A stretch of DNA of 64,000 nt from Vandammella animalimorsus (lineage in GTDB: Bacteria > Pseudomonadota > Gammaproteobacteria > Burkholderiales > Burkholderiaceae_C). Location: the NCBI RefSeq assembly GCF_002285285.1, contig NZ_NSJF01000005.1, positions 62,001 through 126,000 of the forward strand. The letters run 5' to 3'. Positions 14,013 through 29,704 of the stretch are shown here, piece by piece (the stretch's first letter is position 1; the number at the start of each line of letters is the position of its first letter). A program made the translations under genes and the position numbers. The notes beneath the pieces were generated by a model. The model had not been told where the DNA came from, did no database searches, and saw only the letters and a program-made list of their open reading frames with translations.

Positions 14013-14765
14013 ATGAGCCCCACCGCTGTTTTTCGCCTGCCTTGCGCCCGCCGTCTGCAGCGCCTGCCGCTGCTGCTGGGCGCCCTGTGCACAGCCCTGT
14101 CTGCCGTGTCTGCCCTGCCGGCCCGTGCCCAAAACAACCCCAACATGCCCGGCTACATCCCCCCGGCCATCCTGCACAACTTGCACATGTGTGGCTCGGC
14201 CAATTGCGCCACCGCCCCCTCGCCTGCCCAGCCCGCTCAGCCCCTGTCTTCGTTTGAGCAATATTGCCGGGACATTGGCGGTTGCCAGTTCAACAACACG
14301 ACTGCCTGGCGACACCAGCTTGGCTTCGGTGTGGCGGTGGTCGGCTTTGACGCCCCCCAACTGCGCCGCGACCCCACACACAACCGGGGCTCGCTGTTCA
14401 TGGCCACGGCCAACGACCCGCACAAAGCCGAGCAAAAGGCCATGGAGGACTGCATTTCGAGGCGCTTCAGCGATTGCCGTGTGATTGCCCGGGTGGCCAA
14501 CGCCTGCACTGCCATTGTTGAGGCCAGCCGCTATCTGCCCAACGGCGGCGGCAGGGCCTACTCGCGCTTCTATGTCAGCCCCGCTGTGCCTCTGGGCAAT
14601 CTGGGCGATCACCTCGACAAAGGCGGTCATGCGCACCAGGATTTTCGTAATGAAGCCGAAAAAAGCGCCATCGCGGCCTGCAAAAACGACCCTGGCGGCC
14701 AGGGCCAAAGCTGTAGCTCCTCCCCCAGTGTGCTGTGCGCCAGGGATCTGATTACTCCTTTCTGA
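14013..14765 (+). CDS. Secreted protein with DUF4189-like domain
   Basis: The product has 250 residues. A signal peptide covers residues 1-37 (a Leu/Ala-rich core ending ALPARAQ), followed by a Pro-rich linker. A Cys-rich C-terminal part has the pattern of DUF4189 domains: a Gly-Val/Phe-Gly start (LGFGVAVVGFD), KAEQKAMEDC, then regularly spaced CRVIARVANAC and further Cys pairs (AACKNDPGGQGQSC). Ten or so cysteines in the mature part suggest disulfides in the periplasm or outside. The function of DUF4189 proteins is unknown. The TGA stop is directly joined to a 161-bp repeat element; a lipoprotein gene follows that element. Confidence 0.75.
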   Translation: MSPTAVFRLPCARRLQRLPLLLGALCTALSAVSALPARAQNNPNMPGYIPPAILHNLHMCGSANCATAPSPAQPAQPLSSFEQYCRDIGGCQFNNTTAWRHQLGFGVAVVGFDAPQLRRDPTHNRGSLFMATANDPHKAEQKAMEDCISRRFSDCRVIARVANACTAIVEASRYLPNGGGRAYSRFYVSPAVPLGNLGDHLDKGGHAHQDFRNEAEKSAIAACKNDPGGQGQSCSSSPSVLCARDLITPF

Positions 14766-14926
14766 GAGCCTGTTCAAAGTCTCTACACGGCGGTCAAGGA
14801 AGCGGATTTGGGCGGTCTGCGGCGTTGCAAAGCCTCGCCATAGCCCGGGCTATGGCTGCGTTTTGCGCCTTGCAGCCCATCCCAAACCGCTTCTTGCCCG
14901 CTCGTTCCGAGACTTTGAACAGGCTC
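14766..14926. mobile_element. 161-bp fold-back (MITE-like) element, copy 1
   Basis: The ends are perfect inverted repeats (GAGCCTGTTCAAAGTCTC at the left and its complement at the right). The interior can fold into a long imperfect hairpin centred on GCCATAGC/GCTATGGC. It is flanked by TGA on both sides (14763-14765 and 14927-14929), and the left TGA is the stop codon of the DUF4189-like gene. It has no coding capacity. The same sequence recurs at 17712, 26768 and 29226, so a non-autonomous transposable element moved by a transposase in trans is the best explanation. Confidence 0.85.
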
Positions 14927-14935
14927 TGAACCGCT

Positions 14936-15184
14936 ATGAGAACACCCAACGCCATGAAATCTGCACTGATTCTGGCCGCCGCCTTGCTGCTGGGCGCCTG
15001 CGCCACATCGCAATCACCCGCCCACCAGCAGCAGCGCGGCAGCTTCATTGACCGTCAAGGCAACCGCGTCGTTCTGGACAAAAAGCGCCCGGCGGCATCG
15101 CCCTCCGTGGTGGAGGGCGCTGGCGGCGTCTATGAATGCCGCAACGGCCAATGCCAACCCCTGACCCCAGTCCAAATCCAATAA
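14936..15184 (+). CDS. Small putative lipoprotein
   Basis: The product has 82 residues from the ATG at 14936, or 76 from the ATG at 14954. It starts with a lipoprotein signal (MKSALILAAALLLGACATS) with lipobox LGAC, so it is probably lipid-anchored. The mature part is short and hydrophilic, ending with two Cys in VYECRNGQCQPL. No family is recognised. The first ATG is only seven bases after the right target repeat of the element at 14766, so the gene has lost its native upstream region, or relies on the element or read-through for transcription. No good ribosome site is visible. Confidence 0.65.
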   Translation: MRTPNAMKSALILAAALLLGACATSQSPAHQQQRGSFIDRQGNRVVLDKKRPAASPSVVEGAGGVYECRNGQCQPLTPVQIQ

Positions 15185-15372
15185 AAGCAATGCACCACCA
15201 AGCGCCTTGACAGGCCGGGCGCCATTGGGCAAGGGCTGCCGGGGTGAGGCGCTGGCGCAGAATGGGGCAGAGGCCGCCGCCGTCGGGTCGCCCATGCTGT
15301 GGCACGCCATCGGGCAGGGGCAGGCCGCATAAAATCGCCCATTTTTGTGCACCCCATCAGGAACAACACAGC

Positions 15373-16467
15373 ATGAGTCTGCAATGCGGCATCGTGGGCC
15401 TGCCCAACGTGGGCAAGTCCACCCTTTTCAACGCCTTGACCAACGCCGGCATCGCCGCCGAGAACTACCCCTTTTGCACCATCGAGCCCAATGAGGGCGT
15501 GGTCGAGGTGCCCGATCCGCGCCTGGCGCAACTGTCGGAGATCGTCAAGCCCGAGCGCGTCGTGCCCGCCGTGGTGGAGTTCGTGGACATCGCAGGCCTG
15601 GTCGCTGGCGCCAGCAAGGGCGAGGGTCTGGGCAACCAGTTCCTGGCGCACATCCGCGAGACCAACGCCGTCGTCAACGTGGTGCGCTGCTTTGAGGATC
15701 CCAACGTCGTGCACGTGGCCGGCAAGGTCGATCCCATTGCCGACATTGAAGTCATCCAGACCGAGCTGTGCCTTGCCGACCTGGGCACGGTGGAAAAATC
15801 CATCCAGCGCTACGCCAAGCTGGCCAAGTCCGGCAACGACAAGGATGCGGCCAAGATGCTGGCGCTGCTGCAGCGCATCCAGCCCGCGCTGGACGAGGCC
15901 CGCCCCATCCGCACCCTGGGCCTGGACGCCGAGGAGCTGGCCCTGCTCAAGCCGCTGAGCCTGATCACCGCCAAGCCAGCCATGTTTGTCGGCAACGTCA
16001 GCGAGGATGGCTTCGAGAACAACCCGCTGCTGCAGCGCCTGCAGGATTACGCCGCCAGCCAGGGCGCGCCCGTGGTGGCGATCTCGGCCAAGATCGAATC
16101 CGAGCTGGCCGGCATGGAGCCTGAGGATCGCGCACTGTTCCTGCAGGAGCTGGGCCAGAGCGAGCCAGGCCTGAACCGCCTGATCCGCGCCGCCTATGAA
16201 CTGCTGGGCCTGCAGACCTACTTCACCGCTGGCGTCAAGGAAGTGCGCGCCTGGACCATCAAGAAAGGCGCTACCGCGCCGCAGGCCGCTGGCGTGATCC
16301 ACGGCGACTTCGAGCGTGGCTTCATCCGCGCCCAGACCATCGGCTTTGACGACTTCATTCAATACAAGGGCGAGCAAGGCGCCAAGGAAGCGGGCAAGAT
16401 GCGCGCCGAAGGCAAGGACTACGTGGTGCAGGATGGGGATGTGATGAACTTCCTGTTCAACGTGTGA
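15373..16467 (+). CDS. ychF: Redox-regulated ribosome-associated ATPase YchF (Obg family)
   Basis: YchF is a universally conserved P-loop NTPase of the Obg family that prefers ATP and associates with ribosomes. The 364-residue product matches the usual length exactly, starting [20 protein letters not shown] with the G1 motif. G3 is [21 protein letters not shown] coiled-coil insert follows, and the C-terminal TGS domain includes [20 protein letters not shown] and [10 protein letters not shown]. The ATG follows GGAACAACACAGC. It stands alone before a terminator. Confidence 0.97.
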
Positions 16468-16507
16468 GAGGACGGTACAGAATCTCTTTTCACCCCTTCA
16501 AAAAAAC

Positions 16508-16534
16508 ACGGCCCACTGAGGGCCGTATTTTTTT
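16508..16534 (+). terminator. Intrinsic terminator after ychF
   Basis: The 7-bp stem ACGGCCC/GGGCCGT with loop ACTGA is flanked by A and T runs. It serves ychF, and possibly the convergent regulator gene from the other side. Confidence 0.85.
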
Positions 16535-16579
16535 ATTGGCTGTGCACAGAGCGCCAACAAGCTCCTCGAGGGCATTGCC

Positions 16580-16960
16580 TCAAGCCGCAGCAGCGCAGCC
16601 TTGGACTGGGGTGGCGCCATTGGCGCTGCTGCCCTGTAAGTTGGGGCAGTACAGCGTGTGCAGCAGCTGCAGCAGCTGCAGGATTTCGGGTTGGGCGATG
16701 CTGTAGAAGATGCGCTTGCCGTCGCGCCGGGTGCTGACCACATTCTCGCTGCGCAAGATGGCCAGTTGCTGCGACAGCGAGGGCTGGCGAATGCCCAGGG
16801 CTGCGGCCAGATCGCTGACGCAGCTCTCGCCCTGTGCCAGATGGCACAGCAGCAGCAGGCGGTCTTCATTGGCCAGTAGTTTGAGTACGGTCACGGCTTG
16901 ACCGGCGCCCGAGCGCATGAGCTCAGGCGTCAATACGGCAGTTTCAGCAGTTTCAGTCAT
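16580..16960 (-). CDS. ArsR-family repressor of the YgaV/SqrR/BigR (persulfide-sensing) type
   Basis: The product is a 126-residue winged-helix ArsR-family regulator. It has Cys39 in LLLLCHLAQGE and Cys105 in LHTLYCPN, the two positions used as a disulfide or polysulfide switch in SqrR, BigR and E. coli YgaV. The metal-site pattern ELCVC of arsenic sensors is absent. The recognition helix is in IRQPSLSQQLAILR. The ATG at 16960 is preferred over one at 16984, which would overlap the dyad operator at 16983-17010. It is divergent from an AhpD-like gene and a DUF2892 gene, much like ygaV-ygaP, so it probably represses both and itself until oxidised by reactive sulfur. Confidence 0.85.
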   Translation of the reverse strand: MTETAETAVLTPELMRSGAGQAVTVLKLLANEDRLLLLCHLAQGESCVSDLAAALGIRQPSLSQQLAILRSENVVSTRRDGKRIFYSIAQPEILQLLQLLHTLYCPNLQGSSANGATPVQGCAAAA

Positions 16961-16982
16961 GTGGGAGGGGGCGGGGGCCAGC

Positions 16983-17010
16983 ATACAGTTCTTTTAAATA
17001 TAAAATGTAT
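16983..17010. promoter_or_regulatory. AT-rich dyad: candidate operator and promoter of the divergent YgaV-like locus
   Basis: ATACA and TGTAT flank a very AT-rich core (TTTTAAATATAAAA) in otherwise GC-rich DNA, between the ArsR-family start and the AhpD-like start. Position and symmetry suit an ArsR-family operator overlapping both promoters. The base assignment is inference from sequence only. Confidence 0.55.
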
Positions 17011-17047
17011 TCCTGTTAATTGTATGGCAAGCTACAAGGAGTCGAGC

Positions 17048-17413
17048 ATGAGCAAAAGCTACCGCGAAATTATCGAGCACACGTCGTCATGGCTGGCGCC
17101 GCTGCGCAAGGACATGCCGGACACCATGAAAGGTTTTGGCGCCTTGTCGCAGGCAGCGCTGGCCGATGGCGCGCTGGACAAGAAAACTAAGGAGCTGATT
17201 GCACTGGCGCTGGGCGTGGCAGCGCGTTGCGATCCTTGCCTGGGCTACCACGCCAAGGCGCTGGTGCAGTTGGGCTGCACGCGCGCTGAGCTGCTGCAGA
17301 TGCTGGGCATGTGCGTGTACATGGGCGGTGGCCCATCGCTGATGTATGCTGCCAATGCGCTGGCCGCTTACGAGGAGTTTGGCGGAGAGAAGGCGCAGGA
17401 TGCGGCGCAGTGA
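17048..17413 (+). CDS. Carboxymuconolactone decarboxylase / AhpD-like protein
   Basis: The 121-residue product is a single CMD-fold protein with the AhpD-type redox motif Cys61-x2-Cys64-x3-His68 (ARCDPCLGYHAK). This suggests thiol-dependent peroxidase or disulfide-reductase activity rather than lactone decarboxylation. Homologues form oligomers in the cytoplasm. The ATG follows a strong AAGGAG. It is the first gene of a transcript divergent from the YgaV-like repressor, with the DUF2892 gene 100 bases downstream. That context points to detoxification or handling of reactive sulfur or oxidants. Confidence 0.9.
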   Translation: MSKSYREIIEHTSSWLAPLRKDMPDTMKGFGALSQAALADGALDKKTKELIALALGVAARCDPCLGYHAKALVQLGCTRAELLQMLGMCVYMGGGPSLMYAANALAAYEEFGGEKAQDAAQ

Positions 17414-17513
17414 TGCGCGCCACCGACTGGATATTGGATCGATGTTTTGCCGGCCCGGCTGTTGCAGGGCCTGGCAAGAGGAATGTGAAAAAGGAACGTG
17501 AAGGAGTTCTCGG

Positions 17514-17711
17514 ATGAAATTCAATGTTGGCGGGATTGATCGCATTGCGCGCATCGTCGTGGGCTTGGTGCTGATTGCCTTGGCAGCCACGGGCACTGTG
17601 GGTTGGTGGGGCTGGCTGGGTGTGCTGCCTCTGGCCACCGGGTTGTTCCGTTTCTGCCCGGCCTATCCGCTGCTGGGTGTGAACACCTGCAAGCTGCCCA
17701 AGGATTCTTGA
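17514..17711 (+). CDS. DUF2892 small inner-membrane protein (YgaP membrane-domain-like)
   Basis: The 65-residue product has two hydrophobic segments (RIVVGLVLIALAATG and the WWGWLGVLPLATGLFRF region) and the ending CPAYPLLGVNTC. This is the DUF2892 membrane domain found at the C-terminus of the rhodanese YgaP, here as a stand-alone protein without rhodanese. It starts MKFNVGGIDRIARI after AAGGAG. Its two Cys residues near the second helix may be redox active. The TGA stop is the left target repeat of the element at 17712. Confidence 0.88.
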   Translation: MKFNVGGIDRIARIVVGLVLIALAATGTVGWWGWLGVLPLATGLFRFCPAYPLLGVNTCKLPKDS

Positions 17712-17873
17712 GAGCCTGTGCAAAGTCTCTGCACGGCTGGCAAGAAAGTGGATTTGGGCGGTCTGCTGCCATTGCAAAGCCTCGCCATAGCCCCAGCTAT
17801 GGCTGCGTTTTGCGCCTTGCAGCCCATCCCAAACCACTTTTTGTCCGCTCGCGCCAAGACTTTGAACAGGCTC
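17712..17873. mobile_element. 162-bp fold-back (MITE-like) element, copy 2
   Basis: The left end is GAGCCTGTGCAAAGTCTC and the right end is the complement of GAGCCTGTTCAAAGTCTT, so the ends are slightly diverged. The centre holds GCCATAGC/GCTATGGC. TGA flanks both sides (17709-17711, which is the stop of the DUF2892 gene, and 17874-17876). It has the same orientation as copies 1 and 3. Confidence 0.85.
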
Positions 17874-17899
17874 TGAGGCAGGCGGCTGACCATTGCGAA

Positions 17900-17930
17900 A
17901 AAAGCGCCCGCAAATGCGGGCGCTTTTGCT
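17900..17930 (+). terminator. Intrinsic terminator of the CMD-DUF2892 operon
   Basis: A 12-bp perfect stem AAAAGCGCCCGC/GCGGGCGCTTTT with loop AAAT is followed by a broken T run. It lies downstream of the inserted element, so it was probably separated from its operon by the insertion. Confidence 0.85.
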
Positions 17931-17957
17931 TTTGCCAGGCAGGATGGAAAGCTCCGC

Positions 17958-18001
17958 TCACGATCTTGCCCACTGTGTGGGCAAGATCGTGAACAGGTTC
18001 T
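17958..18001 (-). repeat. Long hairpin with a solitary element-like end at the aminotransferase stop codon
   Basis: A 16-bp perfect stem (17958-17973 with 17977-17992) encloses a 3-base loop. On the minus strand it is preceded by AGAACCTGTTC, whose first A is the last base of the aminotransferase TGA stop. The motif resembles the ends of the 162-bp elements with one base changed (AGAACC for AGAGCC). It probably acts as a terminator or mRNA 3' stabiliser, although no T run follows. Confidence 0.6.
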
Positions 18002-19197
18002 CACATGACCTTGGCGATGGATTCGCAGACGTGGCCAATGTTGTTCTCGTTCAGCGCGGCTACGCAGATGCGACCGCTGTCCACGCCATAAACGCCGAAC
18101 TCATTGCGCAGGCGCTCCATCTGTGCCTTGCTCAGGCCCGAGTAGCTGAACATGCCCACCTGGGTGGTGATGTAGGACAGGTCCTGCTGCACGCCTGCGG
18201 CTTTCAGGCCATCGACCAGTTTCTGGCGCATGGCCTTGATGCGGGTGCGCATCTGGGCCAGCTCCTGCTCCCACAGCGCGCGCAGCTCGGGTTTGCCCAG
18301 CACGTAGGCCACGACGGCGGCGCCGTGTGTGGGCGGGTTGGAGTAGTTGGTGCGGATGGCGATCTTGAGCTGGCTGAGCACGCGCGCGGCTTCATCCTTG
18401 TTGGCGGCCACGACCGACAGCGCGCCCACGCGCTCGCCATACAGGCTGAAGCTCTTGGAGAAAGAGGTCGAGACCAGGAAGGTCAGGCCGCTTTGCACGA
18501 ACTTGCCCACCACGGCGCCGTCCTCGGCCAGGCCTTGCGAGAAGCCCTGGTAGGCCATGTCCAAAAAGGGCGTGAGCTTGCGGGCCTGCACGGCCTGCAC
18601 GACGCGGTCCCACTGCTCGGGCGTGAGGTCGTAGCCTGTGGGGTTGTGGCAGCAAGCGTGCAGCACCACGATGGTGCCTTCGGCGGCGGCCTGCAAATCG
18701 GCCAGCAGGCCCTCGAAATCGATGCCGCGCTGAGCGGCGTTGTAGTAGCGGTAGGTGCCCACTTCAAAGCCCGCGTTTTGGAAGATGGCGCGGTGGTTTT
18801 CCCAGCTCGGGTCGGAGATCAAGACCTTGGCCTGCGGCAGCAGCTTCTTGAGGAAGTCCGCGCCGACCTTCAGCCCGCCCGTGCCGCCCAGGGCCTGCAC
18901 GGTGGCCACGCGGCCCGATGTCACGGGCTCCGAATCCTTGCCAAACACCAGCTCCTTGACGGCCTGGTCGTAGGCCAGCAAGCCGTCGATGGGCAGGTAG
19001 CCGCGCGCCTTGGGCTCAGCTTGCAAGGCGGCCTCGGCCTGTTGCACTGCCTGCAGCAAGGGCAGCTTGCCGTTCTCGTCAAAGTACACGCCAACGCCCA
19101 AGTTCACTTTTTTGGGGTTGGTGTCGGTGGCAAATTGTTCGTTCAGGCCCAGAATGGGATCGCGAGGGGCCATCTCGACGGCGGAAAACAATGACAT
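18001..19197 (-). CDS. tyrB: Aromatic amino acid / aspartate aminotransferase (class I)
   Basis: This 398-residue PLP enzyme transfers amino groups between aspartate or aromatic amino acids and 2-oxoglutarate. It starts MSLFSAVEMAPRDPILGLNE, the common N-terminus of the AspC/TyrB group, after AAGGA. CCHNPTGYDLTPEQW carries the substrate-site Asn, the Schiff-base Lys is in STSFSKSFSLYGERVGA near residue 246, and RTNYSNPPTHGA follows. AspC and TyrB cannot be separated with certainty by eye. tyrB is the usual betaproteobacterial assignment. The gene stands alone. Confidence 0.93.
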   Translation of the reverse strand: MSLFSAVEMAPRDPILGLNEQFATDTNPKKVNLGVGVYFDENGKLPLLQAVQQAEAALQAEPKARGYLPIDGLLAYDQAVKELVFGKDSEPVTSGRVATVQALGGTGGLKVGADFLKKLLPQAKVLISDPSWENHRAIFQNAGFEVGTYRYYNAAQRGIDFEGLLADLQAAAEGTIVVLHACCHNPTGYDLTPEQWDRVVQAVQARKLTPFLDMAYQGFSQGLAEDGAVVGKFVQSGLTFLVSTSFSKSFSLYGERVGALSVVAANKDEAARVLSQLKIAIRTNYSNPPTHGAAVVAYVLGKPELRALWEQELAQMRTRIKAMRQKLVDGLKAAGVQQDLSYITTQVGMFSYSGLSKAQMERLRNEFGVYGVDSGRICVAALNENNIGHVCESIAKVM

Positions 19198-19272
19198 GAA
19201 GCGTCCTTGAAACGAAGGAAAAAGACAGGAAAAAACGCGAGCCGGCAATTGTAGGTGTTGTTGGTGTGCACT

Positions 19273-21843
19273 CTATGGCTCTGGTCGGTGGTTGCTGAAC
19301 TGTGGTTGTTTGAGCCATTGGGCGAAAGTCTCTGCGCTCAGCGGGGGGGAGAACAAATAGCCCTGCCCGTAGGCCACGCCCAGGCTTTGCAGGAAGTCCC
19401 GTTGTGTGATGCGCTCCACGCCTTCGGCCACCAGGCCCAGGCCCAGGCCTTGGGCGATGGCTGCCACGGCCTGGCAAATGGCTGTGTCCGAGGCGTTGTA
19501 GGGCGCGCCTTGCAGGAACAGGCGCGAGAGCTTGAGGCCGTGGATGGGCAGGCGGCGCAGGTAGTTCAAGGCGCTGTAGCCTTCGCCGAAGTCGTCGATC
19601 GACAGCCGCACGCCCAAGGTTCGCAAATGCGAGATGGTGCGTGTGGTCAGCGGCTCGTCCTCGATCAGGACTCGTTCAGTGAACTCCAGCTCCAGCGCAG
19701 CGCCGGGCAGGTGGGCTTGCTGCAGGGCCTGCACCACGATGTGCGCCAGATCACCAGCGAGGAACTGGCGGTAGGAGACATTGACGGCAATGGGTACGGT
19801 GTTCAGCCCGGCGTTGCGCCAGCGGCGCACTTGTTGGCAGGCTTCGTTCAAAGCCCAGGCGCCCAGGCGCATGATTTCACCGTTGTGCTCGGCGTGGGCG
19901 ATAAAGGTCTCCGGCGGCACTTCGCCCAACTGTGGGCTGCGCCATCGCAGCAGTGCCTCGGCGCCGATCAGCGTGCCGCTTTGTAGGTGTACCTGGGGCT
20001 GGTAGAGCAATTGCAGCTCTCCCTTGTCGATGGCGCTGCGCATCAGGTTGTCCATTTGCAGCCGGTCGTGCTGGCGCCGCGCCAGATCCTCGCTATAGAG
20101 CTGCCAGCTGCCGTGGCCCCGGCGCTTGCTCTCGTACATGGCGGCATCGGCGTTTTGCAGCAAGGTATCGCTGTCGCGGCCATCGCGCGGCGCAATGGCA
20201 ATGCCAATGCTGGCGCCAATGCGGATGCTCTCGTGCTCAATCTGAAATGGCTCCAAGAGTTGCTGCAGGATGCGCTGCGCCAGCGCAATGGGCTGGCCTG
20301 GGGTGATCATTGGGCAAAGAAATACGAATTCGTCGCCGCCCATGCGCGCGCACAGGGCCTGCTCGCCCGCGGCGCTGCGCAGGCGCTGTGCGACTGCGCG
20401 CAGCAATTGGTCGCCGATGTAGTGGCCCAGCGCGTCGTTGATGACCTTGAAGCGGTTCAGATCGACATATAGCAGCGCCAGCAGGGGCGATTTGCCCAGC
20501 AGGCGCCTGTGCAGTTCCTCCAACAGCGCATCGCGGTTGAGCAGGCCGGTCAGCGGGTCGGTGCGGGCCTTGTGCAGCAGGTTTTGCTCCATGTGCTTGC
20601 TGCGGCTGATGTCCTCGAGCGTGCCACTGATGCGCACGGTAAAGGGGTCGAGCATGTCCGGCTCGCCCTGCATGCGCACCCAGTGCTCGGGCTCGTTGGG
20701 CTGCGGGTGGGGGCGCAGCTCCAGCGTGAAGGCTTTTTGTGAGCTCAGAGCTTGCTCCAGGGCTTGCTGTAGGCGCTGGCTGTCGGGCGGTATGAAGCAG
20801 GCCAGCAGCCCTGCCAGCGAAGCCGGTGGCCGCTCCAGCCGCAAAATGCGCAGCGCACCTTGCGTGAGAAAGCAACGGTCCGTGCCTCGCTCCCATTCCC
20901 AGGCGCCGGCAGTGGACAGGGCTTGCATCCGCGTGAACAGATGCTGATCGCGCCGCGACTCGGTGATGTCGCGGATCAGTGAAATGACCTGCACCGGTGC
21001 ATCACCAGGCCGGGCCGTGCTGGCAAAGCGCGGGATGGCGCTGACTTGCAGCCAGCGGAAATGCCGCGCATGCACCTGGTACAGGCCCATGATGCGGTTG
21101 AGCACAGGCTTGCCACTGCGTTGAGCAATTGCCGCTGGCGTTTGCTCGCGCGGCAGGTGCATGCCATGCGCATCCACTGTGGTCCAACTGTTGGAGTGGA
21201 AAGTGGCGCGCCAGCTGTCGTCGCCTGGGGCATGGTTGAGGATGCGCATGGCGGCATCGTTGATGTGCTGCAAGGTGCCCTGCGCATCGTAGACGACTAC
21301 GCCTTGATCGATGGCCTCGAACAGCTCGGCGTAGTGGTCGCTGCTGTGGCTGTGCAGGCGATGGGTCAATACCAGCCAGTGCGGCGGGGTATGGCTGGCC
21401 GCTTGCAGCATTGCCATGGGGTAGGGCAGGGGCATGGCGTACAAAGCCAGTGAGCGCTGGCCTGGCGCTTGCATGAAATAGGCCTGCCCTTGCCGCAGCG
21501 TTTGCAGCAGTTCCTCGTGCTGAGTGGCGCTCAATCCCTGCAGCAATTGCGGCAGTGGCTGTCCCCGAACTTGGGGGCGCGTTTGCTGAAACAGCGCGGC
21601 CGCAGCTGGGTTGACATCGATCACAAAGCCATCCGAAGCCAGAATGAACGCCGGCAGCGGCAAGCTGTCGAACAGCTGCAGATACAGCACGTCACCGCTT
21701 TGAATGCCCGGCGTTGATCGCGCTGCTGCGCTGCCTGGCAAGCCCGGCAACTGCGTAGCATTGGGTGCGGCATCGGGCGTTGCATCAGCCGCCGCCGCGC
21801 GGGCAGCAGCAGGTTCAGAATGGGAGGAAGCGGGCGTGGCCAT
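19273..21843 (-). CDS. PAS-PAS-PAS-GGDEF-EAL cyclic-di-GMP signalling protein
   Basis: The 856-residue product has no clear membrane segment and an Ala-rich start. PAS-like sensor regions lie near residues 50-110 (LFDSLPLPAFILASDGFV), 165-280 (YAELFEAIDQGVVVYDAQG) and 300-400. The GGDEF domain has an intact ARMGGDEFVF near residue 500. The EAL domain has intact AEALLRW near 628, with NVSYRQF, LEFTERVL and SIDDFGEGYSAL, so both cyclase and phosphodiesterase activities are possible. In such tandem proteins one activity often dominates. It is downstream of no operon partner and may act on motility or biofilm, including the pili encoded at 1.3-4.3 kb, but that link is inference. Confidence 0.94.
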   Translation of the reverse strand: MATPASSHSEPAAARAAAADATPDAAPNATQLPGLPGSAAARSTPGIQSGDVLYLQLFDSLPLPAFILASDGFVIDVNPAAAALFQQTRPQVRGQPLPQLLQGLSATQHEELLQTLRQGQAYFMQAPGQRSLALYAMPLPYPMAMLQAASHTPPHWLVLTHRLHSHSSDHYAELFEAIDQGVVVYDAQGTLQHINDAAMRILNHAPGDDSWRATFHSNSWTTVDAHGMHLPREQTPAAIAQRSGKPVLNRIMGLYQVHARHFRWLQVSAIPRFASTARPGDAPVQVISLIRDITESRRDQHLFTRMQALSTAGAWEWERGTDRCFLTQGALRILRLERPPASLAGLLACFIPPDSQRLQQALEQALSSQKAFTLELRPHPQPNEPEHWVRMQGEPDMLDPFTVRISGTLEDISRSKHMEQNLLHKARTDPLTGLLNRDALLEELHRRLLGKSPLLALLYVDLNRFKVINDALGHYIGDQLLRAVAQRLRSAAGEQALCARMGGDEFVFLCPMITPGQPIALAQRILQQLLEPFQIEHESIRIGASIGIAIAPRDGRDSDTLLQNADAAMYESKRRGHGSWQLYSEDLARRQHDRLQMDNLMRSAIDKGELQLLYQPQVHLQSGTLIGAEALLRWRSPQLGEVPPETFIAHAEHNGEIMRLGAWALNEACQQVRRWRNAGLNTVPIAVNVSYRQFLAGDLAHIVVQALQQAHLPGAALELEFTERVLIEDEPLTTRTISHLRTLGVRLSIDDFGEGYSALNYLRRLPIHGLKLSRLFLQGAPYNASDTAICQAVAAIAQGLGLGLVAEGVERITQRDFLQSLGVAYGQGYLFSPPLSAETFAQWLKQPQFSNHRPEP

Positions 21844-21930: not shown

Positions 21931-21961
21931 TGACGTACAATTTTTCTATCTTGATACGTCA
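21931..21961. promoter_or_regulatory. Inverted repeat upstream of the toxin-antitoxin pair: candidate autoregulatory operator
   Basis: TGACGTA and TACGTCA form a perfect 7-bp inverted repeat separated by an AT-rich 17-base spacer containing TTTTTCTATCTT. It ends 15 bases before the antitoxin ATG, where a ribbon-helix-helix antitoxin would bind its own promoter. Confidence 0.55.
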
Positions 21962-21976
21962 TTCAGAGAGGCCGCC

Positions 21977-22225
21977 ATGCAAACCAAGTTGACCCTACGT
22001 TTGGACGCCGAACTCATTCGCCAGGCCAAGGCCTATGCCGAGCGCGATGGCCGCTCCGTCTCGGAGCTGGTGGCCGCGTACTTCGCCCGCCTGACCCAAC
22101 CACAGCCGCCCCAAGCCCCGCCAGCGGCCGCCGCGCCGCGCACCAGAGGCCTGCTGGGCGCGCTGCAGGGCAGCCCGCTGGATGAGGACGATTACCGCCA
22201 GCACCTGCTGCAAAAACACGGCTGA
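21977..22225 (+). CDS. Ribbon-helix-helix antitoxin (DUF6364/VapB-like)
   Basis: The 82-residue product starts MQTKLTLRLDAELIRQAKAY, a ribbon-helix-helix DNA-binding start. A second helix with DGRSVSELVAAYFARL follows. A Pro/Ala linker leads to a C-terminal tail (LDEDDYRQHLLQKHG) suited to wrapping the toxin. The length and start resemble the DUF6364 group. Its stop overlaps the next start as TGATG, so translation of the pair is coupled. It should neutralise the PIN-domain product and repress the operon through the upstream dyad. Confidence 0.82.
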   Translation: MQTKLTLRLDAELIRQAKAYAERDGRSVSELVAAYFARLTQPQPPQAPPAAAAPRTRGLLGALQGSPLDEDDYRQHLLQKHG

Positions 22226-22704
22226 TGCCCATGGCCGCCCGCCCCCGCGCCCCCGCCAGCGTGCAGGAGCCGCCCGCCCGCTACTTGCCGCCAGGCCAGA
22301 CGGTGCTGCTGGATACCTGCGTCGTGCTCGACCTGCTGCTGTTGCGCCAGCCCTTTGCGGCCCAGGCCTGCGCCCTGTTCGAGCAGGCCGAGCGGGGCCA
22401 GTTGCAGGCCGTGCTGTGCGCCACCACCTTGACGACCATCGACTACCTGGCCTGCAAGCAAGTGGGGCGTGAGCGCTCGCGCGCCATGCTGCAAGACCTG
22501 CTGGCCCTGTGCGGCGTGGCCCCCGTCACCCGCGCCGTGCTGGACGCCGCGCTGCGCAGCCCCATGGCCGACTTTGAAGACGCCGTGCTCGCCGCCGCTG
22601 CACAGGCCTGCGGCGCGCAGGCCATCATCACGCGCAATGTGCGCGACTTCGCCCTCTGCAGCCTGCCAGTGCACACCCCGGCGCAGTGGCTGGCTGCGGG
22701 CTGA
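22225..22704 (+). CDS. PIN-domain ribonuclease toxin (VapC-like)
   Basis: The 159-residue product has PIN-domain acidic residues: Asp in VLLDTCVVLDLLL near residue 30, Asp in ADFEDAVLAAAAQ and the closing TRNVRDF. An expected central Glu is replaced by Asp in TTLTTIDYLAC. This domain cleaves RNA with Mg2+ in type II toxin-antitoxin systems. The first 25 residues are a Pro-rich extension. The ATG overlaps the antitoxin stop, and a second ATG lies two codons later. The pair sits between a signalling gene and uvrB with no sign of a larger mobile island. Confidence 0.83.
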   Translation: MPMAARPRAPASVQEPPARYLPPGQTVLLDTCVVLDLLLLRQPFAAQACALFEQAERGQLQAVLCATTLTTIDYLACKQVGRERSRAMLQDLLALCGVAPVTRAVLDAALRSPMADFEDAVLAAAAQACGAQAIITRNVRDFALCSLPVHTPAQWLAAG

Positions 22705-22860
22705 TCCCCCAAAAAAAGACCAAGGCCCGCGCGCAAGCCGCGCCAGGCCGAACGCGGCGGCCCGGGCAGCAGGGCAGGCACAATCTGCGCTTTGTCTGGT
22801 TGCGCCATGCCCTGTGCTGCGCTTCTTCTCGCCGCAATGCGGTTGCATCCTTTGGCACCC

Positions 22861-24924
22861 ATGTCCACAGCTACGCCGCCGGCCCCGCAGCAGGGCCAAT
22901 TCGTCACCTTCCCCGATTCCCCCTTTCAGCTGTTCCAGCCCTATCCGCCCGCGGGTGACCAGCCCACGGCCATTGCCGAGCTGGTGGAAGGCGTGCAGGA
23001 CGGCGAGGTGTTCCAGACCCTGCTGGGCGTGACCGGCTCGGGCAAGACCTTCACCATGGCCAACGTGATCGCGCGGCTGGGGCGGCCGGCGATCGTGTTC
23101 GCGCCCAACAAGACGCTGGCGGCGCAGCTTTACAGCGAGTTCCGCGAGTTCTTCCCCAAAAACGCGGTGGAGTACTTCGTCAGCTATTACGACTACTACC
23201 AGCCCGAGGCCTATGTGCCGCAGCGCGATCTGTTCATCGAGAAGGACTCGGCCATCAACGAGCAGATCGAGCAGATGCGCCTCTCGGCCACCAAGAGCGT
23301 GCTGGAGCGGCGCGACGTGGTGATCGTGGCCACCGTCAGCGCCATCTACGGCATTGGCGCGCCAGAGGATTACATGCAGATGCGGCTGATTCTGCGCGGT
23401 GGGGGCCTGGCCAATCAGCGCGACTTGATTGCGCAACTGGTGCGCATGCAGTACCGGCGCAGCGACATGGATTTTGCGCGCGGCACCTTCCGCGTGCGCG
23501 GTGACACCATCGACGTGTTCCCTTCGGAAAACTCCGAGCTGGCGCTGCGCATCGAGCTGTTCGACGATGAGGTGGAGGCGCTGCACCTGTTCGACCCGCT
23601 CACCGGCCGCGTGGTGCAAAAGGTGCCGCGCTTCGTGGTCTACCCCAGCAGCCACTACGCCACGCCGCGCGAGAAGGTGCTGGCCGCCATCGAGACCATC
23701 AAGATTGAGCTGCGTGAGCGCCTGCAGCAGCTGCATGAGATGGGCAAGCTGGTTGAGGCCCAGCGGCTGGAGCAGCGCACGCGCTTCGACCTGGAAATGC
23801 TCAGCGAAGTGGGCCACTGCAAGGGCATCGAGAACTACAGCCGCCACCTCTCAGGCGCGCAGCCTGGCGAGCCGCCGCCCACGCTCACCGATTACCTGCC
23901 CGCCGATGCGCTGATGTTCCTGGATGAGAGCCACCAGATGATCGGTCAGCTCAACGCCATGTACAACGGCGACCGCGCGCGCAAGCAAACCCTGGTCGAT
24001 TACGGTTTTCGCCTGCCCAGCGCGCTGGACAACCGGCCGCTGAAGTTCGCCGAGTTCGAGCAGCGCATGCGCCAGGTGGTGTTCGTCTCGGCCACGCCCG
24101 CGGCCTATGAGCAAGAGCACGCCAGCAAGGTCGTCGAGCAAATCGTGCGCCCCACTGGCCTGGTGGACCCGGAAATCGAAGTGCGCCCGGCGGCCAGCCA
24201 GGTGGACGACGTGCTGCAGGAAATCCGCAGCCGCGTGCAGCAGGACGAGCGCGTGCTCATCACCACGCTGACCAAGCGCATGGCCGAGCAGCTGACCGAC
24301 TACCTGACGGAAAACGGCGTCAGGGTGCGTTACCTGCACAGCGATGTGGACACGGTCGAGCGCGTGGAAATCATCCGCGACCTGCGCTTGGGCAGCTTCG
24401 ACGTGCTGGTGGGCATCAACCTGCTGCGCGAGGGGCTGGACATCCCCGAGGTCAGCCTGGTAGCCATTCTGGACGCCGACAAGGAAGGCTTTCTGCGCGC
24501 CGAGCGCAGCCTGATCCAGACCATTGGCCGTGCCGCCCGCAACGCGCGTGGCAAGGCCATTCTGTACGCCGACCAGATGACCGACTCCATGCGCCGCGCC
24601 ATTGGCGAGACCCAGCGGCGGCGCGACAAGCAAATGGCCCACAACCAGGCCCACGGCATCACGCCGCGCACCATCCGCAAGCAGGTGCGCGACCTCATCG
24701 ACGGCGTTTACAGCGAAAAAGCCGATCGGCAGAAACAGGCCCAGGCCCAGCAGGCCGCCTACACCGGCGAGCTGCTGGAGATGAGCGAGAAAGACGCCTC
24801 GCGCGAGATCAAGCGGCTGGAAAAGCAAATGCACGAGCACGCCCGCAACCTGGAGTTCGAGCAGGCCGCCGCGCTGCGCGACAAGCTGGCCCAGCTCAGG
24901 CAGCACCTGTTCGGCGCGGGCTGA
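22861..24924 (+). CDS. uvrB: UvrABC system protein B
   Basis: UvrB is the damage-verification helicase of nucleotide excision repair, working with UvrA and UvrC. The 687-residue product has Walker [16 protein letters not shown] near residue 56, the beta-hairpin region [15 protein letters not shown], helicase motifs LDESHQ, VSATP and QTIGRAARN, and the C-terminal UVR motif [22 protein letters not shown]. The ATG at 22861 gives the expected N-terminus. Another ATG lies seven codons upstream. Confidence 0.97.
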
Positions 24925-25517
24925 GCCGGCCCAAGCGGCCCAAGCGGCCCAAGCGGCCATGGCCGACGCGTACCGCCATCAATCGGTATGGCAACGGCGC
25001 GCGCGGCGCTGCAAATGGCGCTGCGCGGCCCACTGCATCGCCAACGCCAGGCGGCGCAGCCCGCGCGGCGCGCCAGGCGCTGTGGCTTGTGCCAGGCAAG
25101 GCAGTTGGCCGCTTGCCTGCAAGCTGCAGGCATCGGCAGGATGGGCAGGGGCGCCCGAAGGGGCGGGGGGCGTCAGGGCAAAGGCAAGCATGGTCGGCTT
25201 GGGTGGGTTGTGGATGACAAGCCCCAAGCATCCTTGCACTGTGTGAAATGCCTGCGCAGCCTCGGTGCGCTGCGCATGAAGCGCCGTGCCAGGCCTTTGC
25301 CAGTGGCACTGCGGGACAAGCCCTAGAATCCGGCGCTGATTGGGCTTGAAACAAGGCATTTTTGCGTCTGCATACACCGCTGTTGGCGTGGCTGAGCATC
25401 TGGCGCGTGCTGCTGGGCCATGCCTTGCCAACAGGGCGGCGCATCGCCACATGGCCTGGCGCACTTTGAGCACTTGGTGCGGCGCAGGCCCGCTTTCTTT
25501 TTTCTCAGGAGCTTTTC
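24925..25517. other. 593-base intergenic region with a short 9-bp tandem repeat
   Basis: Directly after uvrB the sequence holds about three and a half copies of GCGGCCCAA (24927-24959). I see no convincing gene, RNA or terminator in the rest. Open frames here lack ribosome sites and recognisable composition. The last 200 bases presumably hold the promoter of the PCu(A)C gene. Confidence 0.6.
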
Positions 25518-26099
25518 ATGTCTTTTTCTTTGACTCGTCTGCCCCGCATGGCTGCGACTGTGCTGCTGGGCTTGGCTGCAGTTGGCGCTGGCGCTGGTCT
25601 GGCGCAAGCGCAGGAGTACCGCCTCAAGGAGCTGGAGATCAGCGCCCCGCACGCCCGCGCCAGCCGCCCGGGCGTGCCCAACAGCAGCGCCTACTTTGCC
25701 GTGACCAACCATGGCCAGCAGGCCGATCGCCTCGTCAGCGCCTCATCCCCAGTGGCCGAGCGCACCGAGCTGCACGACATGAAGATCGAGAACGATGTCA
25801 TGCGCATGTTCCAGGTCGAAGGCATCGAGCTGCCCGCTGGCCAAAGCCTGACGCTGGGTCAGGGCAACAAGCTGCACGTCATGCTGATGCAGCTCAAGCA
25901 GCCGCTGCAAGCCGGGCAAACCATTTCGCTGACGCTGCAGTTCGAGAAGGTCGGCGCCATCGACATTCAGGTGCCGGTCAAGGAGCACAAAATGGGCGGG
26001 CACGAGCACCACGGGCACGGCCATGGCGACGGCCATGCCGAACACGGCAAGGGCCAGCAAGGTCATTCCGGCCATGAAGGCCACGGCAAGGCGCACTGA
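25518..26099 (+). CDS. PCu(A)C-family periplasmic copper chaperone with His-rich tail
   Basis: The 193-residue product has a signal peptide (residues 1-31, ending AQAQ) and a cupredoxin-like PCu(A)C domain that binds Cu(I) for delivery to cytochrome oxidase. The copper ligands fit the pattern H-M...M...H-M: ELHDMKIENDVMRMFQVEG and LHVMLMQLKQ. A Gly/His-rich tail of about 40 residues (for example HEHHGHGHGDGHAEHGKG) adds many extra metal ligands. The ATG follows AGGAGC. It is convergent with the DUF302 gene across a terminator. Confidence 0.9.
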   Translation: MSFSLTRLPRMAATVLLGLAAVGAGAGLAQAQEYRLKELEISAPHARASRPGVPNSSAYFAVTNHGQQADRLVSASSPVAERTELHDMKIENDVMRMFQVEGIELPAGQSLTLGQGNKLHVMLMQLKQPLQAGQTISLTLQFEKVGAIDIQVPVKEHKMGGHEHHGHGHGDGHAEHGKGQQGHSGHEGHGKAH

Positions 26100-26134
26100 T
26101 CAAGAGCAACAATCGGCCGGGTAACGGCCAACAC

Positions 26135-26166
26135 AAAAAAGGGGCCTTGGATGGCCCCTTTTTTTT
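26135..26166. terminator. Bidirectional terminator between the PCu(A)C and DUF302 genes
   Basis: A 12-bp perfect stem AAAAAAGGGGCC/GGCCCCTTTTTT with a 6-base loop lies between two convergent genes. A and T runs on both sides let it work on both strands. Confidence 0.92.
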
Positions 26167-26204
26167 GGATCGTGGTGTGGCAGTGCTTATTGCACTTGCC
26201 GCAC

Positions 26205-26687
26205 TTACTGCACTGCAGCCGGCACCAGTTTTTCCAGGCCAGCCAGCGGCGCGGTCACGTCCGCGGGCAGGTGGTGGCGCTGGCCCATGTAGCTGGCGGT
26301 GTTCATGGAGACGAACACATGGCCCTTGCCGTCTTCCCAGACCAGCACTTTGGAGGGCAGGTCGATGGCCAGCGTGGGGGCCTGCTGCATCATCGGCGTG
26401 CCCAGCTTGGGATTGCCGAACACGATGACGCTGGCCGCTGGCATGTCCAGTTGATGGTCCTTGGCGGCTTGTTGGTGGTCGATGACGGTGAAGATCGTCA
26501 GGCCCTTGGCCTTGAGCGCCTCTTCGATGCGCTTGACCGACTCTGCGGCCGAGTGCGCGCTTTGGACCGTCAGCAGGCCGTCCACTTCGGCCGGCTTCTT
26601 GGCCTCATCGGCGGCCATGGCCGTGCCGCCCAGCATGGCCAGGGCGAGCGCCAAGCTATGGAGTTTGGGGAGTTTCAGCAATTTCAT
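26205..26687 (-). CDS. Secreted DUF302 domain protein
   Basis: The 160-residue product starts at ATG 26687 after AAGGAGC. It has a signal peptide (residues 1-25, ending TAMAAD) and one DUF302 domain: AESVKRIEEALKAKGLTIF, the His-containing VIDHQQAAKDHQLDMP, VIVFGNPKLGTPMM, and KVLVWEDGKGHVFVSMN. The family function is unsettled, and binding of small ligands or metal has been suggested. It is monocistronic, with one element of the 162-bp family 80 bases upstream of its start. Confidence 0.88.
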   Translation of the reverse strand: MKLLKLPKLHSLALALAMLGGTAMAADEAKKPAEVDGLLTVQSAHSAAESVKRIEEALKAKGLTIFTVIDHQQAAKDHQLDMPAASVIVFGNPKLGTPMMQQAPTLAIDLPSKVLVWEDGKGHVFVSMNTASYMGQRHHLPADVTAPLAGLEKLVPAAVQ

Positions 26688-26767
26688 GCTCCTTGTGTCA
26701 AAACAGGGCGGCAATGATAGGTGATACCGGCCAGCAGCGTGTGGCCGGTGTCGGCGCAGTGGGCTCA

Positions 26768-26929
26768 GAGCCTGTTCAAAATCTTTGCACGGCGGTCAAG
26801 AGAGCGGATTTGGGCGCTCTGCTGCGCCCGCAAAGCCTCGCCATAGCCCCAGCTATGGCTGAGTTTTGCGCCTTACAGCCCACCCCAAACCGCTTCTTGC
26901 CCACTCGCGCCGTGATTTTGAACAGGCTC
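26768..26929. mobile_element. 162-bp fold-back (MITE-like) element, copy 3
   Basis: The inverted ends are GAGCCTGTTCAAAATC and its complement, with TCA on both sides (26765-26767 and 26930-26932). The right TCA is the stop codon (TGA on the minus strand) of the siderophore receptor gene. It differs from the reverse complement of copy 4 (29226-29387) at only 4 of 162 positions, with no gaps. Confidence 0.88.
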
Positions 26930-29179
26930 TCAGAACTGGTAGCTCAGGCGCAGCATGGCGTTGCGCGGCGCGCCCCACTGGTATTGGGTGAACTGGCCAT
27001 AGTTGGTGTAGTAATGCGCGTCGAACAGGTTGTTGATGTGCAGCGACAGCGCTGCGGCGCGGTTGACGTCGTAGCGCAGCATCAGGCTGGCGATCTGGTG
27101 CGCGCCTTGGCCGATGAGCACGTTCTGGCGCTGCGGGTTGCGCACCGTGCGTTGCGTGGCGCCGTACCAGTTCAGGCCAGCGCCAATTTGCAGCCCCGCC
27201 AGCGCGCTACTGAGGCGATAGGTAGTGAAGAGCTTGAAACTGCGGTTGGGCGTTTCGCGGCCGATGCGCTGGCCTTGCGCATCGCGCGCGACGAAGCTGC
27301 TCCAGCCAGCGTGCAGGTTCCAGCGCGGGCTGAGGGCGCCGGAGATTTCCAGCTCGACGCCGCGCGTCTTGGCGCCATTGACGGCGCGATACACGGGCTG
27401 GCCGCCGGGCAGGCGCTCGCCGGTAGCCACGGCCACGTTGTCGCGCCGGGTTTCGAAGGCGGCCAGCGCCAGATTGAGCTGGCCTTCGCGCAACCTGCTC
27501 TTGAAGCCCGCTTCGTAGTTGCGCCCGATCACCGGATCCAGGTAGCGCCCCTGCGCATCCAGCGTCGATTGGGGCTGGAAGATGTCTGTGTAGCTGGCGT
27601 ACAGCGCATGCTGCGCACCGATTTTGTAGCTCAGGCCGAGGTAGTGCGAGGCGCGCTGCAGGCGGTTGCTGTAGGGCGTGAAGTAGGGGCCAAAGCTGTC
27701 GTCGTGCACACGGTAGCCGTTCATCCGCAGGCCCAGCGTCAGCGCCAGCGGCTCGGCCAGCGCCAGCTCGGTGATGCCGGAGATGGCGTTTTGCGTGCGG
27801 CGCCCGCGCAGCGCCGTAAAGCGCTCTGGTAGCCACTGCGGTTGGGGCAGATCAAAGTCCGGTCGGCTGAAATCGCCCCAGCTGGGCGGCAACTGCCCCG
27901 GCAGCGGGTTGTGGTAACCGTTGTCGTAGCGGTTGCGGTTGTGGTTGTAATTCAGGCGCAGCAAATGGGTGCGGCCCCAGGCGCGGTAGTGGCCGTGCAG
28001 CTTGGCATCGAGCGTGCGCTGCACGCGGCTGCCGCTGATGTGGTTGATGTAGCTGGTGGCCATGCCGGTGTTGCCCAGCGGCTCTGGATGGCCAGCGACG
28101 TAGCTGTTGTTGAAGTCCAGGCGGTTGTCGCTGTGCGTGTAGTTCAGCGTGGCCTGCCAGCCGCTGCCCAGGCGCTGCTCCAGCGTCAGATAGCTGTTGA
28201 GGCTGCGTGTGCGCGCATGCGCCCAGTGCGGCGCGGTGTTGACCGAGCGGCCGTAGCGGGTGAGGCTGCCGTCGCTGTGGAACAGCGGCAGTCCGCCGGA
28301 CATGGTGCCGGTTGGGGTGCTGCGCTGCCAATCGGCGCCCAGGCGCAGCGTGCTGTATGGGCCAAGATCGGTCTCGGCCGTGGCGTAGAGGGTGCTGCGC
28401 GCTTCGCTGTAGCGATCGATGAAGGAATCGCGCGTTTGACGCACGCCCACGGCGCGTGCGCGCAGCGTGCCGGCCTGGTTCAGCGGGCCGGAGACATCGG
28501 CTTGGGCGCGGCGCAGGCCCCAGCTGCCCAGGCCCAGCGCTGCGCTGCCCTGGAGCTGACGCTGCGGGCGCTTGCGCACCAGGTTGATCGAGGCCGAGGG
28601 ATTGCCTGGCCCGGTCATGAAGCCGGTGGCGCCGCGCACGATCTCGATGCGGTCGTACAAGGCCGTGTCCATCAGGTTGTCGCCGTAGTTGAAGCGCGTG
28701 TCGTAGTAGTTGGTCACGCCATCGTAGGAGACGCTGCCCACGTTCATGCCGCGCGCGGAAATGCTGAAGCGGTCAATGTCGTTTTGCTGCGAGCTCAGCC
28801 CCGTGGCGTTGTTGAGCACGTCGATCAGGCGGCCCAGCTCAGGCTGATCGAGCATGCGTTGGCTGGTGACGATGCTCACGGACTGGGTGCTGTCCTTGAG
28901 CTCTTGCGGGATGCCGGTGGTCGAGTTGCTCAGCCGCGCCGTGTAGTTGCCGGCGCCTTCGGTCTCCAGCAGCGCCTCGGGGCTGCTGCCGGTGACGGTG
29001 ATGGCCTCCAGCTCGGCCCCAGATGTTGAAGGGGTGGGCGCAGCTTGCGCCCATGCGCTGGTCAGGCCCAGCAGGGCGCTGCCCACGCTCAAAAGGCGCA
29101 GGGCTTTGGCCAGGCCAGTGATGGGGTAGGGTGGGCGTGCAGGCGCAGAAGCGGCGCGGGGTGGGCAGATCGAGGCCAT
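26930..29179 (-). CDS. TonB-dependent siderophore receptor (FhuE/FpvA-like)
   Basis: The 749-residue outer-membrane receptor has a signal peptide ending SAWAQA and the TonB-box region ELEAITVTG. The plug domain has the siderophore-receptor motifs IPQELKDSTQSVSIVTSQRM, SARGMNVGSVSYDG and GATGFMTGPGNPSASINLVRKRP. The barrel ends with the aromatic RLSYQF. The MTGPGNPSASIN form of the plug suggests hydroxamate or pyoverdine-type siderophores, which is only a hint. It is probably controlled by the AraC-type gene upstream. The gene is bracketed by inverted copies 3 and 4 of the 162-bp element; copy 4 ends about 45 bases before the ATG, so the promoter must lie in or beyond it. Confidence 0.93.
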   Translation of the reverse strand: MASICPPRAASAPARPPYPITGLAKALRLLSVGSALLGLTSAWAQAAPTPSTSGAELEAITVTGSSPEALLETEGAGNYTARLSNSTTGIPQELKDSTQSVSIVTSQRMLDQPELGRLIDVLNNATGLSSQQNDIDRFSISARGMNVGSVSYDGVTNYYDTRFNYGDNLMDTALYDRIEIVRGATGFMTGPGNPSASINLVRKRPQRQLQGSAALGLGSWGLRRAQADVSGPLNQAGTLRARAVGVRQTRDSFIDRYSEARSTLYATAETDLGPYSTLRLGADWQRSTPTGTMSGGLPLFHSDGSLTRYGRSVNTAPHWAHARTRSLNSYLTLEQRLGSGWQATLNYTHSDNRLDFNNSYVAGHPEPLGNTGMATSYINHISGSRVQRTLDAKLHGHYRAWGRTHLLRLNYNHNRNRYDNGYHNPLPGQLPPSWGDFSRPDFDLPQPQWLPERFTALRGRRTQNAISGITELALAEPLALTLGLRMNGYRVHDDSFGPYFTPYSNRLQRASHYLGLSYKIGAQHALYASYTDIFQPQSTLDAQGRYLDPVIGRNYEAGFKSRLREGQLNLALAAFETRRDNVAVATGERLPGGQPVYRAVNGAKTRGVELEISGALSPRWNLHAGWSSFVARDAQGQRIGRETPNRSFKLFTTYRLSSALAGLQIGAGLNWYGATQRTVRNPQRQNVLIGQGAHQIASLMLRYDVNRAAALSLHINNLFDAHYYTNYGQFTQYQWGAPRNAMLRLSYQF

Positions 29180-29225
29180 GGCAGTGCAGTGGGATGAAAA
29201 AGCAATGGGAAAACACCCGCTCTCA

Positions 29226-29387
29226 GAGCCTGTTCAAAATCTCGGTGCGAGTGGGCAAGAAGCGGTTTGGGGTGGGCTGCAAGGCGCAAAACGCAGCCAT
29301 AGCTGGGGCTATGGCGAGGCTTTGCGGGCGCAGCAGAGCGCCCAAATCCGCTCTCTTGACCGCCGTGCAAAGATTTTGAACAGGCTC
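29226..29387. mobile_element. 162-bp fold-back (MITE-like) element, copy 4 (inverted)
   Basis: This copy is in the opposite orientation to copies 1-3 and is flanked by TCA on both sides (29223-29225 and 29388-29390). It lies between the receptor start and the AraC-type gene. It does not touch the stop codon of any recognisable gene. Confidence 0.88.
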
Positions 29388-29704
29388 TCACAATCGCCGC
29401 GCATGGCGCTCGCCCACGGCTGGGGGCTGCAATGTGCACAACACGGCCCATGACTGGCGCCATGGGCGATTCTTCGGGCGCAGCAGATCGCCCGATGCCA
29501 GGGGGGCATGAGTGCGGAGCGAAGGATCCGAGAGCCGGTTTCTGAGAGCTGTTGCTCAGGCATGGCTTGGCCTGGGCTGCCGCGTTGGCAGGTAAGGGCC
29601 TGGCTGTGCGCGCCACAGTATCGGCAACGCCTGCTGCTGCCGGCTATGCGCAAACGCGGCAAGGCGATGCGCAATGACGCAATGCGACCGCGCACTGCGT
29701 AGGC
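29388..29704. other. 317-base intergenic region downstream of the AraC-type gene
   Basis: No convincing gene is seen. It contains a near-repeat GCGCAATG/CGCAATGC just after the AraC stop and several short inverted repeats. An open frame on the minus strand (29309-29695) runs through the element and has no protein-like features. Confidence 0.5.

Follow-up and report, generated by a model that had tools for sequence, protein, structure and literature searches.

The principal finding of this study is that short mobile elements present in four copies within a 64,000-nucleotide stretch of the Vandammella animalimorsus genome (the whole stretch is referred to here as the window) contain a structure-conserved core that is common to elements with different ends. 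This core is an asymmetric hairpin of roughly 50 nt, centrally placed in elements of 157-162 bp. A preliminary description of the same DNA had identified the window's elements as MITEs; the surprise beyond that call is the core, which, like the placement of copies at stop codons, the description had missed.

Fold-back elements of the window and their genomic copies

The four fold-back copies of 161-162 bp reported in the preliminary description, with their inverted ends and palindromic centre, were all seen, the only exception being one base in the left end of the second copy, which reads GAGCCTGTGCAAA; the other seven of the eight ends read GAGCCTGTTCAAA. All four have GCCATAGC/GCTATGGC at the centre, and each was found to have the same TNA triplet on both sides (4/4), again as described, these flanks being, on the + strand, TGA/TGA for copies 1 and 2 and TCA/TCA for copies 3 and 4. 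Copy 1 (161 bp, 14766-14926, + strand) has as its left target duplication the TGA at 14763-14765 (+), which is the stop codon of a CDS call at 14013-14765, and its asymmetric hairpin core lies at 14820-14874 (+; 79.4 bits with our covariance model R1). Copy 2 (162 bp, 17712-17873, +) is similarly preceded by a TGA duplication (17709-17711, +) that forms the stop of a short CDS call at 17514-17711, with the core at 17767-17821 (+; R1, 70.0 bits); folded alone, this copy reached -88 kcal/mol (z -9.4), and 0 of 200 shuffles were as low. Copy 3 (162 bp, 26768-26929, +), in which the ends, centre and flanks were read, is followed by a TCA duplication (26930-26932, - strand) that is the stop codon, TGA on the - strand, of a CDS call at 26930-29086, and has its core at 26822-26877 (+; R1, 56.6 bits). 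Copy 4 (162 bp, 29226-29387, - strand) has its core at 29278-29333 (-; R1, 63.7 bits), and its TCA flanks do not coincide with a called stop codon. Copies 3 and 4 (26768-29387) are in opposite orientation, 96% alike, and bracket the long gene call at 26930-29086 (-) like a composite unit.

In the genome as a whole, the end motif (at most one mismatch) occurs at 82 + 91 places, compared with 0 + 1 for its reversed control, and the repeats are thus not due to chance. The whole-genome search with a 162-bp profile that had been proposed was run on genome stretches and returned at least 59 matches, at least 49 of them full-length, both numbers being lower bounds, with 40 of 153 candidates scored in one search. 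Identical triplets flank 35 of the 49 full copies (TGA 13, TCA 9, TAA 7, TTA 6), many of these sites lying within CTNAG, and for 31 of the 49 another copy exists at 98% identity or more. At one locus of this genome (L151:1339-1985, C11:33765-34411) four copies stand head-to-tail at a spacing of 162 bp with flanking bases in common, the core stem being altered there to GGGC/GCCC; at another (L146:1501-1688, C7:26395-26582) a longer copy has the core stretch GTTTTATGGCTGT repeated.

The insertion/empty-site polymorphism that the preliminary description had suggested seeking in relatives was found for two of the four window copies, each time with a single TGA at the empty site, the comparison having given matches for copies 1 and 2, with the stretches compared for copies 3 and 4 unmatched. 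A same-genus genome without copy 1 (G008) aligned ungapped with the joined 117-bp flanks at 98.3% across one TGA. A second (G006), which carries copy 1 at the same place, is without copy 2 and again has one TGA, the flanks matching at 91% with two one-base gaps on the right. These empty sites, the terminal inverted repeats, the duplications and the presence in the same genome of an insertion sequence (IS) with matching ends (below) support the view that the window elements are non-autonomous MITEs, and we infer that they are mobilised in trans. Spread through phages or plasmids was considered and rejected: IMG/VR gave 0 matches for an exact core pattern and phages 0 for the window element, with plasmid records for three element queries numbering 1, 6 and 0.

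Partner insertion sequences

The IS in question is an 848-bp element of the same genome (L031) with ends GAACCTGTTCAAAATCTTTT and a TAA duplication, whose end GAACCTGTTCAAAATCTTT is identical at 18 of 19 bases to the end GAGCCTGTTCAAAATCTTT of copy 3. Two of its frames match positions 1-71 and 84-257 of the NCBIfam model transpos_IS5_3, the second with 157.2 bits (cut-off 110) and the first with 92.6, below the cut-off alone; that both match the one model suggests a frameshifted transposase. The IS5-like origin proposed earlier is supported by the score of the second frame and by the TNA duplication, which, in combination with a length of about 850 bp, would fit the IS1031 subgroup of the IS5 family. 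Versions of this IS of 841-848 bp were found in three genomes of the same genus (L097, L106, L114, L099 and L103). The earlier statement that the window itself holds no transposase agrees with our searches: matches to PF01609 and PF13340 fall on contigs C1 and C6 of the genome and none on the window's contig C9, and tblastn of seven ORFs from IS-like loci, at least three of them transposases, gave no match in the window.

Model R1 detected no core inside the IS loci L031 or L278, the core words GTTGCAAA, TTTGCGCC and GCCATAGC are absent from L031, and the ISs compared hold at most one short core word, GCGCCTTG.

A core common to elements with different ends

In other genera, BLAST matches were confined to the element's centre, and folding of the loci (24 inspected, including same-genus ones) mostly showed this region at the midpoint of a further fold-back whose ends were different. 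A strict core pattern was present in 71 of 399 genomes of the family and 40 of 141 genera, the reversed control yielding 0 among the matches listed. In a second scan, the genera named among the matches listed include Acidovorax, Variovorax, Tibeticola, Rubrivivax, Rhizobacter, Leptothrix, Thiomonas, Ideonella and others. One genome alone (G301, loci L384-L389) contains 233 strict cores. From 161 distinct cores, element boundaries were obtained for 116, with 20 giving none and 25 cut by contig ends. Identical duplications flank 82 of the 116 (TGA 55, TCA 4, CTAG 13, CTAA 6, TTAA 2, TTAG 2), an identity that is partly by construction as boundary calls accept only TNA or YTAR duplications and at most one mismatch. 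Within these 82, length is nearly constant, at 159 bp in 55 of 59 TNA-type elements and 161 or 159 bp in 21 of 23 elements with four-base duplications. The core is thus carried by elements with TNA, YTAR or CTAG duplications.

Some of these other ends could also be related to ISs. A 1171-bp IS in G034, with a TTAA duplication and a match to transpos_IS5_4, has ends matching those of GGCAACGCTGAAC-type elements with YTAR duplications; this genome holds 63 strict cores, and GGCAACGCTGAAC-type ends were read in two (L041 and L056). A 266-bp element of G899 with a CTAG duplication has ends GAGCCTGTCGGACTTAA, and in a different genome, G167, an IS1182-family element has ends CAGCCTGTCGGACTT and a CTAG duplication. 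For the GAAGGTG/GAGGCTG ends (GAAGGTGTGAAC/GAGGCTGAGAG), no partner IS was found among 30 loci kept from PF01609 matches in 16 genomes or in an end-pattern search of 7 genomes. At L296:1441-2860, an IS with GAGGGTGTTTCC ends directly adjoins a GGCAACGCTGAAC-type element.

At greater distances, 55 of 274 genomes in the class have a match to the covariance model (E 0.01), as do 34 of 398 in the phylum (E 1e-3), the latter including one family of another class repeatedly. The outer arms are unseen by the model, and terminal repeats found there confirm many of the class-level matches: repeats of at least 13/18 accompany 23 of 43 cores, compared with 2 of 152 positions drawn at random from these loci, the remaining 20 loci having no good terminal repeat at 140-180 bp. 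Under a stricter test combining terminal repeat and duplication, 13 of 44 class-level matches pass and 31 fail.

Several variants of the element were also observed. Longer elements with two inverted cores occur at L097:652-918, L373, L354, L335 and L049, the first of which (267 bp) adjoins an IS with similar ends. At L375 and L377 there are solitary left ends (CTGA followed by GAAGGTGTGAACGAATCC) with no core match behind them, which are likely decayed copies. In G024 (L054:1460-1680) a tRNA cluster harbours a GGCAACACTGAAC-type element, by which a tRNA-like gene appears to be disrupted; ARAGORN reports 13 other tRNAs in the locus. Rfam gave no match above the gathering threshold in the window, and in eight related loci only t44 passes, beside the element in L343. 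An earlier description of a shared, structure-conserved core was not found in searches of open-licence literature.

Structural conservation of the core

The stems of the core show compensatory change together with a retained asymmetry of their unpaired bases. Alignment A1 (66 cores) has 96.3% of its cells paired and 42 in which both partners differ, compared with 12.1 after shuffling. In alignment A2 (40 class-level matches) 90.5% pair, with 95 double-sided cells against 26.3 shuffled; double changes affect 14 of 16 pairs, and the covariation is 0.427 against at most 0.128 when slid. These counts lean, since the model guided the alignment of A2 and exact patterns the choice of part of A1, and related rows are not independent. 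The least biased evidence for covariation is the pair next to the selected region at 30 loci picked on the inner 27 nt only, which is paired in 29 of 30 and in three types (GC 17, CG 9, AT 3, unpaired 1), types that sort by end class. Including the bulge, the bulge+x/partner combination is TC/G in 17 of 20 GGCAA-type and 10 of 10 CTAG-type elements, and TG/C in 36 of 41 GAAGGTG-type and 22 of 29 GAGGCTG-type elements.

The outer unpaired motifs, a left-hand GTTG combined with a right-hand GCGCC, are kept in 59 of 66 rows of A1 and 30 of 40 of A2, and the palindromic form GCAAC is found in 0 rows of either alignment (66 and 40). The inner motifs are near-constant in A1 (62/66 and 63/66) and looser in A2, where CT(C/T)G occurs in 19 of 40 and CTGCG-like forms in 29 of 40. 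Homogenisation of the two arms was rejected as the sole cause of pairing, because it is incompatible with the outer asymmetry that has been retained.

Placement at stop codons

Read on one strand or the other, every TNA triplet spells a stop codon, and insertion at a gene's own stop thus leaves its protein intact. Three of the four window copies are at called stop codons. Across the genome, 21 of 35 copies are so placed, compared with 46 of 255 window TNA sites outside genes (p 5e-7), an excess that is not significant against a CTNAG control (6/19, p = 0.09). Of 45 TNA-type elements from other genera, most of which have GAAGGTG- or GAGGCTG-like ends, a discriminative gene caller placed 33 at sense TGA stops, 10 in intergenic positions, 1 at an antisense stop and 1 in contact with a gene, with another caller, whose antisense ORFs run through elements, giving 14 of 45 (8 'inside', 19 'edge'). 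Among control CTGA sites outside genes 278 of 1013 were at stops and 735 intergenic, corresponding to an odds ratio of about 7 to 9 for stops.

Orientation differs between types. Between tandem genes, TNA-type elements of other genera are found 37 times in sense and 3 times in antisense, an orientation that follows from their TGA target (55 TGA vs 4 TCA). At stops the window's type stands 13 times in sense and 11 in antisense (all 49 full copies), and elements with four-base duplications number, in the few cases between tandem genes, 2 and 3. Divergent gene pairs hold 5 of the 49 full copies. Persisting copies are commonly located at the stop codon of a gene, and we read the placement as one enzyme's preference for TGA combined with survival at harmless sites.

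Discussion

Taken jointly, we consider it likely that these elements are trans-mobilised MITEs with exchangeable ends and a conserved core that may be active as a folded single strand. In the genome of the window, an IS5-family DDE transposase, for which the 848-bp IS is a candidate source, would bind the GA(G/A)CCTGTTCAAA ends and insert the element at TNA with duplication of the triplet, and insertion at a gene's own stop codon would spare the protein. The window's copies would be members of a widespread group of short fold-back elements with a three-part build, namely exchangeable terminal repeats, variable arms and the conserved core, in which the repeats would be exchanged to fit different IS transposases and the hairpin would be held at a nearly fixed distance from them. 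Two end types were found to have an IS with matching ends within their own genome; the replacement of ends over time we infer. The core may work as a folded single strand, of DNA or RNA, in the element's own propagation, and may be recognised by something common to many Proteobacteria, the ends adapting to the local transposase. Considered on its own, a role of the core in propagation is a proposal to which we give slightly less than an even chance, and more tentative again is the suggestion that it constitutes a portable, transposase-independent module read by a common proteobacterial factor, whose lineage survives by swapping ends among successive IS families, these being two IS5 groups and probably IS1182.

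The closest known systems each share some of these features. Type II bacterial MITEs are, in the excerpted text of PMC10969869, short elements with terminal inverted repeats, target duplications and similarity to ISs at the ends only, all of which hold for the window elements; unlike those described there, however, the window elements are also conserved at the centre, which is common to ends fitting different IS groups. With the TNA-target members of IS5 they share the duplication, the ends and a partner transposase scoring with transpos_IS5_3, but no core match was seen in that IS locus. QMITE2, known mainly from Coxiella, is a MITE of 150-190 bp with an internal palindromic repeat and a location mostly in 3' UTRs; compared by description (PMC5896051), it differs in its variable duplications of 7-11 nt and in the GTAG-type REP inside it. 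YPAL/RU-2 and ERIC are palindromic mobile repeats of 127-168 bp beside genes, and YPAL, again compared by description (PMC2229807), differs in having internal repeats and duplications of variable size, between 3 and 26 bp. REPs, as portrayed in extracts of PMC3733652, are extragenic imperfect hairpins bearing a GTAG or CGTC tag, with compensatory stem changes and single or paired occurrence. The hairpins of the window type are likewise imperfect, extragenic, compensatory in their stems and single or paired, but are without the tag so described, have IS-like ends and duplications, and abound in several genomes without a Y1_Tnp match.

That likeness raises the alternative of a REP/REPIN-type repeat moved by a hairpin-reading Y1 (RAYT) transposase, to which the conserved mismatches of the hairpin, the REPIN-like elements with two inverted cores and the Y1_Tnp matches in 10 of 16 core-bearing genomes would lend themselves. 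We regard it as highly improbable. No Y1_Tnp match was found in the other 6 of the 16, these being the window's own 99.6%-complete genome (G000), G034, G184, G111, G079 and G086, of which G034 and G184 hold 63 and 35 strict cores; the 3- or 4-bp duplications, the IS-like ends and the want of a GTAG or CGTC tag of the kind given in the parts of PMC3733652 consulted point the same way, and such an origin is disfavoured. A simpler possibility is that the elements are ordinary MITEs in which the core is the relic of one ancestor, conserved through recency or shared descent only. The near-identity of many copies (31 of 49 with a twin at 98% or more) is consistent with this, as is the sorting of cores by end class expected from descent within classes, but stems that keep pairing through two-sided changes across a whole bacterial class, and an outer unpaired asymmetry that is never palindromic in the rows examined, make it an unlikely account.

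The association with stop codons admits two further explanations. If the hairpin served the host in 3' UTRs, by stabilising mRNA or ending transcription, and were selected for this, it would come to lie after stops, and we note that the TNA-type elements of other genera are enriched at sense stops (33 of 45, with 278 of 1013 for CTGA sites) and in sense between tandem genes (37 to 3), and that all four window cores were flagged as terminator-like in a scan that found 21 sites in the region against 14.3 expected (sd 3.6). However, the core stem is followed by TG(C/A)GTTTTGC rather than a long run of T, the TGA target of the biased type (55 to 4) accounts for its orientation, and neither the window's type (13 and 11) nor the four-base types (2 and 3) prefer an orientation; the unbiased orientation at stops in the window's genome counts against an RNA role in sense only, and we think it improbable that the core serves the host in this manner. 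Insertion might instead be actively steered to stops, for example via the ends of translation or transcription, beyond mere survival there, as the odds ratio of about 7 to 9 over CTGA sites and the own-genome excess (21 of 35 against 46 of 255) could suggest. Selection against the disruption of promoters and genes can yield much of that excess (divergent pairs hold 5 of 49 copies), which in the own genome is not significant against the CTNAG control, and we hold such steering to be decidedly unlikely.

Preferring the reading of trans-mobilised MITEs with exchangeable ends and a core that may be active as a folded single strand, we see a departure from the usual view of MITEs as shrunken ISs whose ends alone are important: the centre of these elements seems to last longer than the ends, with compensatory change preserving its shape across the class as terminal repeats and duplications switch type. 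Placement at stop codons offers a transposon a cheap and harmless entry into dense genomes. Together these elements provide a testable case of small passive transposons carrying a functional structure of their own, and the core provides a marker for following their changes of host and enzyme.
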